NCBI GenBank assembly: GCA_014728215.1
Contig: WJLZ01000032.1
Span: 1-64,000, forward strand
DNA: 64,000 nt
DNA from: Chitinivibrionales bacterium
GTDB lineage: Bacteria; Fibrobacterota; Chitinivibrionia; Chitinivibrionales; WJKA01
Direction: 5' to 3'
The notes beneath the pieces are model-generated. The model saw only the letters and a list, made by a program, of their open reading frames with translations, had not been told where the DNA came from and made no database searches. Of this stretch, positions 44,774 through 48,347 are shown piece by piece. Within the stretch, counting starts at the first letter, position 1; each line of letters begins with the position of its first letter. Made by a program: the position numbers and the translations under genes.

Positions 44774-45133
44774 ATGACCAGAACTGCATCAAAAGAATCC
44801 CCGGTCCGTATCGAAACCTATTCGCGCGGTCCGTATCAAATTCTCAGAATTAATGGTGGTAATTCAATAACCGATCTTTCCGAACTCAGAGATCTGGTTT
44901 CACACTATCTCGATAAAGGCAAGCGAAAAGTTGCCGTAAGCTTTTCATCGGCATCCTATATATTCAGCGGCGCATTGAAAGTGCTTATCGATTGCTATAA
45001 CAAAATTGCCGATCTCGGCGGCGATCTCTGCATAATCGAGCCTAATCCAAGCCTTTTCGATACTCTCGAAATGCTCAATATCGACCGGGTTATCGGCATT
45101 TATGTGTCGGAGGATTATTTGCCGGATAAGTGA
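44774..45133 (+). CDS. STAS-domain protein
   Basis: A 119-residue STAS fold. The core KVAVSFSSASYIFSGALKVL corresponds to the antagonist phosphorylation loop, with Ser in FSGA. It is unlike the STAS at 40346 in detail. It lies downstream of purQ and converges with a third STAS gene, with 35 bases between the stops. Confidence 0.75.
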   Translation: MTRTASKESPVRIETYSRGPYQILRINGGNSITDLSELRDLVSHYLDKGKRKVAVSFSSASYIFSGALKVLIDCYNKIADLGGDLCIIEPNPSLFDTLEMLNIDRVIGIYVSEDYLPDK

Positions 45134-45168: not shown

Positions 45169-45501
45169 TCACTTAAGATTTCTGACTACATTCAGGACCT
45201 GGTTTAAATTTGTCAATTCGAACAGGCGGTTGATATAGGAGCGGGGATTGGTGTTGGCATTGAGGACGATTACCTTTTTATTCTCCGACTGCATGCGGGT
45301 GTGATAGTAGACAATTATTCCCAGGCCGTGACTATCCATGAAATTGGTCCGAGTAACATCGATAATGATTGCTTTGGGATCTTTTTTGTAGATGGATTCG
45401 AGTTTCCGGGAAAATTTTTTAACATCGATATCGACAACCCTGCCCACAAGCTCGAGCAGAGGGATATCCTTATATTTCCGTTCGTGAAGTTCCAGGGCCA
45501 T
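45169..45501 (-). CDS. STAS-domain anti-sigma factor antagonist
   Basis: A 110-residue STAS protein, MALELHERKYKDIPLLELVG at the start and IIDVTRTNFMDSHGLGIIVYYH at the core, with the conserved Ser in MDSHG. On the minus strand, convergent with the previous STAS gene. Three STAS proteins within 5 kb of a SpoIIE-HATPase protein suggest that one switch reads several inputs. Confidence 0.82.
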   Translation of the reverse strand: MALELHERKYKDIPLLELVGRVVDIDVKKFSRKLESIYKKDPKAIIIDVTRTNFMDSHGLGIIVYYHTRMQSENKKVIVLNANTNPRSYINRLFELTNLNQVLNVVRNLK

Positions 45502-45676: not shown

Positions 45677-46648
45677 ATGGAAAACACCGGCGTATCATCA
45701 CATTCAACGGCAAAAAAGGGAACCGGGTTTGTTTATCATGACAAATATGCCCGCCATCAATTGACACAGGGCCATCCTGAATGTCCGCAGCGTCTGGAGG
45801 CTATCCGTGAAATGATGGCGTCGGAGGGGTTTGATAAAAGGGTGTGTTCCCTTTCGCCCGTTGATGATATGGCGAAGGTTCTGTCTTTTGTAAGGAAAAT
45901 TCATTCGGAGGAGCATTGTGAATCGCTGAAAGAAAATCCGGAGACCTGGGAGGTTGCGATGCTCGCTGCCGGCGGAGCCATGGCCGGAGTCGATGCCGTT
46001 TTTTCGGGTCAGTGCAAAAATGTGTTCTGCGCACTCCGTCCCCCGGGACACCATGCCAACAACAACGGGCTCCATTATGACGGGCTCAATCAGGGGGAAG
46101 GGTTTTGTTTTATCAATAATATCGCCGTTGCAGCACGCTATGCTCAGGCTGCATGGGGATGTAAGGATATTCTGATAATCGACTGGGATATTCACCATGG
46201 TAACGGTACCGAATGGGCGTTTTATGAAGATCCCACGGTATTTTATTTTTCAACGCATGTTTTCTGGACCTTTCCCGGAACAGGACATCCGGGCAAAAAG
46301 GGACGGGGGGCCGGCGAAGGCTACACCCTGAACTGTCCTTTAGAACCTTACAGCGGCGATGATGAGATCCTTCAGGTGTGGGATGATACTTTTATTCCTG
46401 CCCTTAAAAAAGTGGATTTCAAAGCCGATTGCATGATGATTTCGGCAGGGTTCGATTGCAAGGAAAATGATCTTTTAGGCAACCTTGGTATCACCGATGG
46501 GGGGATTGAAGAGTTGACAAGAAGAAGTATGGTCCTTGCCGATGAGCATTGTGATGGACGGCTTGTTTCGGTATTGGAAGGCGGCTATACTCTTGACAGT
46601 CTTGCCGATGCAGTAAATACGCATATTACTACATTACTCACTAAATAA
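45677..46648 (+). CDS. Histone deacetylase/AcuC/AphA-family hydrolase
   Basis: A zinc amidohydrolase of 323 residues. Family motifs: HPECPQRLEAI near residue 34, RPPGHHA near 122, GEGFCFINNIAVAA near 145, the zinc site DWDIHHGNGT near 172, and SAGFD near 257. Bacterial members deacetylate acetyl-CoA synthetase, polyamines or other acyl-amines. It lies 12 bases before the selenoprotein gene, so it probably starts that operon. Confidence 0.92.
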   Translation: MENTGVSSHSTAKKGTGFVYHDKYARHQLTQGHPECPQRLEAIREMMASEGFDKRVCSLSPVDDMAKVLSFVRKIHSEEHCESLKENPETWEVAMLAAGGAMAGVDAVFSGQCKNVFCALRPPGHHANNNGLHYDGLNQGEGFCFINNIAVAARYAQAAWGCKDILIIDWDIHHGNGTEWAFYEDPTVFYFSTHVFWTFPGTGHPGKKGRGAGEGYTLNCPLEPYSGDDEILQVWDDTFIPALKKVDFKADCMMISAGFDCKENDLLGNLGITDGGIEELTRRSMVLADEHCDGRLVSVLEGGYTLDSLADAVNTHITTLLTK

Positions 46649-46660
46649 GAAGGGGTACCT

Positions 46661-46885
46661 ATGAAATTCAGAATCACCTATTGCGGCATGTGAAATTACA
46701 AACCTCGTGCTGCCGGTCTGGCAGAGGAGCTGAAAAAGAAATTTAATGCAGAATCGGAACTTATCGAATCGAGTGGCGGCGTTTTTGAAGTCGAAATGGA
46801 TAATGACCTGATATTTTCCAAGAAAAAGCTGAATCGATTTCCGGAGGAAGGTGAGATAGCAACGCTCGTTTCGCAAAACAAATGA
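46661..46885 (+). CDS. SelW/Rdx-family selenoprotein (UGA-encoded Sec at codon 11)
   Basis: Read through the TGA at 46691-46693, the frame gives 74 residues with the SelW signature C-x-x-U: YCGMU-NYKPRA, where U is codon 11. The rest also fits the family: AEELKKKFN, SSGGVFEVEMD, LIFSKK, NRFPEEGEI. AAGGGG precedes the ATG. The stop overlaps the next gene's ATG (ATGA), which supports translation past the TGA. A hairpin with a GGTCT loop follows the TGA. SelW-like proteins are thioredoxin-fold redox proteins. Without recoding, only a 10-residue peptide would be made. The selABCD genes are not in the window. Confidence 0.88.
46691..46727 (+). promoter_or_regulatory. Bacterial SECIS-like element
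   Basis: Directly behind the UGA, CTGCC (46710-46714) pairs with GGCAG (46720-46724) around a GGTCT loop, and CCT (46703-46705) pairs with AGG (46725-46727) across a 4-base bulge. The GGTCTG loop sequence is the one in the E. coli fdhF SECIS, and it lies 24 bases from the start of the UGA, close to its spacing there. It would bind SelB. Confidence 0.7.
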
Positions 46886-47490
46886 TTCACTACGAAGTAC
46901 ATCCGTGCAACCCCCAGCCGCGTTTTTTGAATCATGCAGCAGCATTGCTGAAAAATGAAAACGGTATTTGTGTGTATCCGACCGATACCGTATACGGCAT
47001 GGGGGCCTGTGCAAGCAATATAAAGGCTGTTTTAAAGATCGCTGAGCTTCTGAAAAAAGATAAAAAGCGGATGTTTTCCTATATCTGTACCAGTTTTTCG
47101 CAGGCGAGTGTGTATGCAAAAATCAGCAATGCTAATTTCAAGCTTATGAAACGGTATCTTCCCGGTCCCTTCACGTTTATTCTTCCGGCAACAAACTATG
47201 TTCCAAAGAAGATAAGTCCCAGAAGAAAGACCGTGGGAATCAGAATTCCCGATTGCCCGATCTGTCTGGAGCTTGTTCGTTTGATTGAAGAGCCCCTGGG
47301 AAATACATCGTTGAGGTTACCGGGGCAGGAGCGGGGAGATCCGAAAGCAATAAAGCCTGCAGTCATGCACGAAGTCGATATCATGCTTGATATCGGGCCG
47401 CTTCCCGACCCGCGCGGATCAACTATTGTCGATCTGACCGGGGATGTTCCCGAGATTATCCGGATGGGGAAGGGGGAGTGGGGAGAGTGA
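46882..47490 (+). CDS. Sua5/YciO/YrdC-family protein
   Basis: Probable L-threonylcarbamoyladenylate synthase-type protein, making the precursor of t6A in tRNAs that read ANN codons. The 202-residue YrdC fold shows VYPTDTVYGMGA near residue 34, KKDKKRMFSYICTSFSQAS (KRP..KP-like loop region) near 56, and RKTVGIRIPDCPICLELV near 115. YciO-type paralogues share these traits, so the exact role is not certain. It overlaps the selenoprotein stop by 4 bases. Confidence 0.82.
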   Translation: MIHYEVHPCNPQPRFLNHAAALLKNENGICVYPTDTVYGMGACASNIKAVLKIAELLKKDKKRMFSYICTSFSQASVYAKISNANFKLMKRYLPGPFTFILPATNYVPKKISPRRKTVGIRIPDCPICLELVRLIEEPLGNTSLRLPGQERGDPKAIKPAVMHEVDIMLDIGPLPDPRGSTIVDLTGDVPEIIRMGKGEWGE

Positions 47491-47491
47491 C

Positions 47492-47539
47492 GCGGCGATG
47501 CGACGACGCGACGACACGACGATGGGACGACACGACGAA
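47492..47539 (+). repeat. Six tandem 8-nt repeats (GCGACGAC type)
   Basis: Units: GCGGCGAT, GCGACGAC, GCGACGAC, ACGACGAT, GGGACGAC, ACGACGAA, all exactly 8 bases, starting 2 bases after the Sua5-type stop. The period is not a multiple of three. It ends 28 bases before the mazG start. Confidence 0.7.
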
Positions 47540-47567
47540 ATATGAAACTGTTTTTCAAGGAGCACCA

Positions 47568-48347
47568 ATGTCTGAAGCATTAGACAAATTTATCGAAATA
47601 ATAGCCCGCCTGCGTGGTCCCGGGGGATGTCCCTGGGACAGGGAGCAGACCCATAAGAGTATTCTCAATTGTCTTCTGGATGAGACCTATGAATTTTTTG
47701 AGGCTGCCGAGCAGGACAACGATGAGAAGATGAAAGAAGAACTGGGCGACCTTCTTCTTCAGGTGGTACTGCACGCTCAGATGGGTGCGGAGCGGGGCGC
47801 GTTTACTATCGATGATGTTGCCCGGGGGATAGCCGAAAAAATAATCCGCCGTCACCCGCACGTGTTCGGGGATACCGAGGTATCGTCATCGAAAGAAGTT
47901 ACTCGTAACTGGGAAGAAATCAAGCGCACGGAGAAGGGGATGCAGGACCGGAAATATCTTGTTGACGGCGTTCCCGAGGCTTTGCCGGCCCTGTTCCGGG
48001 CAGAGAAAGTGCAGCGACGGGTCGCCCGGATCGGTTTTGACTGGACCGATATGAAACCGGTACTCGATAAGGTGGAGGAAGAATTCGGGGAATTTCGTGA
48101 AGCTCTTGCGATGGACGATCAGGAACACGCCATGGAAGAACTCGGGGATATCATGTTTGCTCTTGTCAATGTTGCCCGCCATAATAAAATCTGCGCCGAA
48201 GACGCCCTCAGGATGACTGTTAAAAAGTTCATTAACCGGTTCCGATATATCGAAGACCAGTATAAAAAACAGGGAAAAGATATACGAAAAGCCTCTCTTG
48301 AAGAAATGGATTTGTTCTGGAATGAGAGTAAGGGAAAGGTTGGGTAG
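47568..48347 (+). CDS. mazG: MazG nucleoside triphosphate pyrophosphohydrolase
   Basis: Hydrolyses NTPs to NMP and pyrophosphate, clearing damaged or regulatory nucleotides. Start 47568 has AAGGAG; an earlier frame start runs through the octamer repeats. Tandem MazG domains over 259 residues: GGCPWDREQTHKSI then EEFFEA-type ETYEFFEAAE and EELGDLLLQVV in the first, VEEEFGEF and MEELGDIMFALVNVAR in the second. Typical for full-length MazG. Confidence 0.94.
   Translation: MSEALDKFIEIIARLRGPGGCPWDREQTHKSILNCLLDETYEFFEAAEQDNDEKMKEELGDLLLQVVLHAQMGAERGAFTIDDVARGIAEKIIRRHPHVFGDTEVSSSKEVTRNWEEIKRTEKGMQDRKYLVDGVPEALPALFRAEKVQRRVARIGFDWTDMKPVLDKVEEEFGEFREALAMDDQEHAMEELGDIMFALVNVARHNKICAEDALRMTVKKFINRFRYIEDQYKKQGKDIRKASLEEMDLFWNESKGKVG

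Follow-up and report, generated by a model that had tools for sequence, protein, structure and literature searches.

The segment 46661-46885 on the + strand of the window (the whole stretch of 64,000 nucleotides that was analysed) is, with very little doubt, a genuine selW-like selenoprotein gene, in which selenocysteine (Sec) would be inserted at codon 11 under the direction of a SECIS element; this call draws on homology, on conservation of the UGA, on covariation within the SECIS and on the presence of the Sec machinery. The full reading of the frame is MKFRITYCGM-UGA-NYKPRAAGLAEELKKKFNAESELIESSGGVFEVEMDNDLIFSKKKLNRFPEEGEIATLVSQNK-UGA, in which the internal UGA is followed directly by NYKPRAAGLAEEL and the protein ends in SQNK before the terminal UGA. 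The motif CGMU occupies codons 8-11, at the predicted N-terminal active site of the selW-like protein. That Sec is actually inserted in the source organism is something we infer from these lines of evidence. The features of the locus are collected in Table 1.

Table 1. Features of the selW-like locus and its neighbours (positions in the window)
Feature	Position	Strand	Basis or remarks
Histone-deacetylase family protein, upstream neighbour	45677..46648	+	PF00850, 257 bits
Shine-Dalgarno-like GAAGGGG	46649..46655	+	5 nt 5' of ATG; from sequence
selW-like ORF (predicted selenoprotein)	46661..46885	+	74 residues plus stop, Sec = codon 11; UGA=Sec translation, PF10262, NF041051
In-frame UGA, predicted Sec codon of CxxU motif	46691..46693	+	TGA in 89/90 loci, one TGC
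Bacterial SECIS apical hairpin (predicted)	46710..46724	+	stem 46710-46714 / 46720-46724, loop GGUCU 46715-46719; covariation
Sua5/YciO/YrdC (Sua5/TsaC-type L-threonylcarbamoyladenylate synthase)	46882..47490	+	PF01300; TIGR00057 over cut-off
MazG nucleoside triphosphate pyrophosphohydrolase, after Sua5	47568..48347	+	TIGR00444, 320 bits

The protein obtained by reading through the UGA scores well above the cut-offs of three family models: 74.2 bits against the Pfam Rdx family (PF10262; curated cut-off 22.6), 106.3 bits against the NCBIfam equivalog model for SelT/SelW/SelH (seleno)proteins (NF041051; cut-off 88) and 60.8 bits against TIGR02174, CXXU_selWTH (cut-off 34.2). The Rdx match extends on both sides of the UGA, and when the whole genome was searched in six frames, this locus was the sole Rdx match, with one TGA inside. 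In a profile search, the solved Rdx proteins 2FA8 (Atu0228) and 3DEX and Selenoprotein W (2NPB) came up as relatives, with matches that span most of the length; 2FA8, the best-matching of the solved Rdx proteins, has Cys where the selW-like protein has the predicted Sec. Based on family membership, the product is probably a small thioredoxin-like CxxU thiol or glutathione-linked redox protein. The family scores and the conserved UGA bear out the SelW-like selenoprotein with C-G-M-UGA at codons 8-11 that had been proposed in the first-pass annotation. An ORF finder that terminates at UGA listed no + strand ORF of at least 60 amino acids in the selW frame, and the further claim that the gene escapes standard gene calling is correct for ORF callers that treat every UGA as a stop, but not for Sec-aware annotation, for which NF041051 exists. 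When the window was scanned for other TGA read-through ORFs, no other convincing selenoprotein emerged; the remaining top candidates, judged by eye, resembled antisense shadows or stop-then-start junctions.

The UGA is conserved among both close and distant homologues. An Rdx gene is present in 10 of 101 related genomes (the source genome included), and each of the 10 carries a single TGA, at the same codon; in these relatives, neither C8 nor the Sec column varies. In a wider collection of 90 loci, in which some records appear twice under different ids and which yielded 80 distinct TGA sequences for RNA analysis, the equivalent of codon 11 is TGA in 89 and TGC in one. These loci carry the labels Fibrobacterota, Gemmatimonadota, Melainabacteria/Cyanobacteriota, Acidobacteriota, Planctomycetota, Pseudomonadota, Thermodesulfobacteriota, Myxococcota and Calditrichota. 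Of the two search patterns, one contained Cys; this could bias the collection only towards Cys forms, and hence does not explain the preponderance of TGA. Distant Cys forms may nonetheless be under-sampled, since the search favours relatives of the Sec-form query.

A pseudogene, in the form of a Cys-type Rdx gene interrupted by a nonsense mutation, would fit the single in-frame stop and the Cys members elsewhere in the family, such as 2FA8 and the TGC locus (L060). However, relatives across many phyla share the identical UGA, the frame 3' of it is conserved with codon statistics that resemble those of coding DNA, and the pairs of the SECIS covary. Conservation of the UGA and of the frame refutes the pseudogene reading, to which we give practically no credence. 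The first-pass annotation had held that its reading would fall if the codon-11 region were not conserved in relatives, and had suggested looking for Cys homologues at this codon; the region retains its UGA, and the search for Cys forms gave the single TGC.

That single Cys-form homologue comes from a Myxococcales MAG in which no selB was found. At this locus, a hairpin with a GGTCT loop can still pair, with two G-U pairs. The hairpin might be a relic of a change from Sec to Cys, although the conserved A-A-G-L-A codons could also produce it, and the Cys form itself may come from an assembly or sequencing error in the MAG.

The distribution of selB follows that of the selW-like gene. Among the related genomes, selB was found in 9 of the 10 with SelW, compared to 5 of the 91 without (Fisher p = 9e-9, with the relatedness of the genomes uncorrected); the sole SelW-positive relative in which it was not found is a 77%-complete genome. 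Similarly, selB scored over the cut-off in 29 of the 34 genomes of distant homologues tested, and the other five comprise four with the UGA form, which may be incomplete, and the only one with the Cys form.

A hairpin with the sequence CTGCC-GGTCT-GGCAG lies 17-31 nt 3' of the UGA. The published model of the bacterial SECIS specifies a loop of 3-9 nt, a stem of 4-16 bp, G in the first two loop positions, a distance of 16-37 nt from the UGA and an MFE of at most -7.5 kcal/mol (PMC13188914). The selW hairpin agrees with this model, with a 5-nt loop (GGUCU) that lies 21 nt after the UGA, a 5-bp stem, and an energy of -11.9 kcal/mol (-8.0 when the hairpin is taken by itself). Single-sequence energy does not set the hairpin apart from shuffled sequences (z ~ -1.3), another structure is preferred when a 90-nt stretch is folded, and SECIS-like geometry is found at 124 of the 2232 TGAs of the window (5.6%). 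Without covariation, the hairpin alone is statistically weak and within chance; the homology and the covariation are far beyond chance.

Standard pairs make up 95.8% of pair cells across the 80 distinct sequences (87.7 +/- 0.6 in shuffled data), and 35 pair cells have changed on both sides, compared to 7.7 +/- 2.1 after shuffling. The signal is lost when the pairing is slid by 1-3 columns, and the real pairing stands above all shuffles and slides. Changes on both sides are seen in four of the five stem pairs. Both partners of the pair 21-33 are third codon positions, largely free at the protein level, and over the 80 sequences the pair reads CG in 52, UA in 20, GC in 3, UG in 3 and AU in 1, with 1 unpaired. 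Taken together, the pair types require approximately 20 changes on the protein tree, itself a tree of few columns, and thus the covariation is not due to one inherited difference. The G at loop column 26 is invariant. No Rfam family matches the hairpin. A study of Epsilonproteobacteria described hairpins of this kind, with 5/6 bp and an invariant G (PMC4607533). The hairpin with an fdhF-like GGTCT loop that had been noted after the UGA is thus confirmed in its position and supported by covariation.

The source genome (~5.0 Mb, 96% complete) encodes the components for Sec insertion, and the search for selA, selB, selC and selD that had been recommended found all four; the first-pass annotation had named a lack of selB/selC as grounds for rejecting its reading, and this objection falls away. 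The tRNA-Sec gene selC, with a UCA anticodon (TCA in DNA), forms a single cluster with selA (508.8 bits, TIGR00474) and selB (349.5 bits, TIGR00475), and selD scores 373 bits. The selD gene (L027/L114, G000:C187:44584-45516, - strand) itself has an in-frame UGA, in the N-terminal active site SAAG-U-AAK, and is likely a selenoprotein gene, although a simple scan for hairpins 3' of its UGA detected no SECIS with at least 5 bp in the stem. In a peroxiredoxin gene (AhpC/TSA; L113, G000:C115:12900-13900, TGA at 446), a UGA occupies the peroxidatic position (FTFV-U-STE) and a hairpin with a GGUC-type loop comes after it; this gene likely encodes another selenoprotein. Other selenoproteins were sought by single family searches: formate dehydrogenase alpha had no match in the source genome, and the search for GrdA had none either, but its control likewise matched nothing. 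The presence of selC, selA, selB and selD, together with the UGA-containing selD and peroxiredoxin genes, indicates that UGA serves as both stop and Sec in this genome.

These observations bear on whether the genetic code is changed such that UGA specifies an amino acid other than Sec, for instance Trp or Gly, which would account for a frame that is clearly coding through an in-frame UGA. Under such a code, the selW-like gene would not be expected to end with UGA, as it does; moreover, the Sec machinery is present, the sole homologue that lacks the UGA has Cys at the aligned residue, and the other UGA cases sit at active-site positions of SelD and the peroxiredoxin. A changed code is refuted by the UGA at the end of the gene and by the family-specific position of the internal one, and we consider its probability negligible.

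For the selW-like selenoprotein, we propose that a ribosome starting at 46661 would arrive at the UGA at 46691, where the hairpin 17-31 nt past it would recruit SelB with Sec-tRNA(Sec), and codon 11 would receive Sec. Translation would then go on to the UGA at 46883, read as an ordinary stop, and the product would be an Rdx/SelW protein of 74 residues whose active site is C-x-x-U.

The terminal UGA (46883-46885) overlaps the ATG at 46882 of the Sua5-type gene as ATGA, just as the first-pass annotation had described, and the flanking genes are of the histone-deacetylase and Sua5 types it had named. The gene order SelW-Sua5-MazG is shared within the genus and by two genomes from a different family of the order. 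The window and the same-genus relative both have the overlap itself, but the other family has a gap between selW and Sua5; the deacetylase gene lies 5' of selW only in the same-genus relative. In distant relatives, selW has unrelated neighbours, for example ispF, phosphofructokinase and glutathione reductase. Since the neighbourhood is not conserved outside the order, it says little about the function of selW.

The overlap and the kept gene order would suit a role in which Sec is encoded mainly for regulation, with read-through controlling the Sua5-type gene by translational coupling at the ATGA. We consider this improbable, because the other family of the order has an intergenic gap in place of the overlap, distant relatives have other neighbours, and the SelW protein is itself conserved, and thus has a function of its own. 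A narrower version, in which the overlapping Sua5/TsaC-type gene would, within the genus, respond to selenium sensed through insertion of Sec at the UGA of selW, is a speculation to which we assign a similarly small chance. If it were true, ribosomes would stop at codon 11 when selenium is low and miss the ATGA, less t6A-tRNA synthase would be made, and tRNA modification would be tied to the supply of selenium.

Some other features of these neighbourhoods are of separate interest. In two Desulfuromonadales-type MAGs (L066 and L085), a glutathione-disulfide reductase gene lies directly 5' of selW. A glutathione-linked redox role has been suggested for the SelW-like family (PMC1088965), and this adjacency, in two cases only, fits that role as a hint. 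Between Sua5 and mazG, the window has low-complexity degenerate cgacga/cgacac repeats (47490-47541), and two convergent small STAS-domain genes that resemble anti-sigma-factor antagonists lie at 44774-45133 (+) and 45169-45501 (-).

The locus adds a little-studied order of Fibrobacterota to the range of SelW selenoproteins, with a SECIS that is well supported, and the set of 80 sequences provides a clean, covariation-supported SelW SECIS of use for annotation. It also illustrates that a reading of raw sequence can correctly recover a recoded gene. The selW-Sua5 operon overlap within the genus is a minor extra, and general knowledge of selenoproteins is unchanged by this locus.

The SECIS of E. 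coli fdhF is an apical stem-loop 3' of the UGA with the loop GGUCU. The selW hairpin has the same loop in an apical stem-loop, but belongs to a different gene, places the loop ~3 nt further from the UGA and does not have a bulged U in the same place. Bacterial SelW selenoproteins, the gaps in their annotation and read-through of the UGA in Campylobacter are already published. The SelW-like family was the most abundant selenoprotein family in the Sargasso Sea set (PMC1088965), was reported in a 2006 survey to have hardly any Cys forms among organisms that use Sec (PMC1794560), and is often missed in annotation (PMC4607533). The gene described here shares with the members in these three studies the CxxU motif and a SECIS directly 3' of the UGA, and differs in that it comes from a Fibrobacterota lineage; our search, which covered openly licensed papers, found no report of SelW in Fibrobacterota. 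A close parallel is the C. jejuni SelW (CJnc60; NF041051 SelTWH_Campy), likewise an unannotated UGA-containing ORF of ~80 amino acids, and our protein scores over the cut-off of that model. The C. jejuni protein is translated past the UGA, based on Ribo-seq and proteomics (PMC11955535), whereas the Fibrobacterota member is known here from its sequence.
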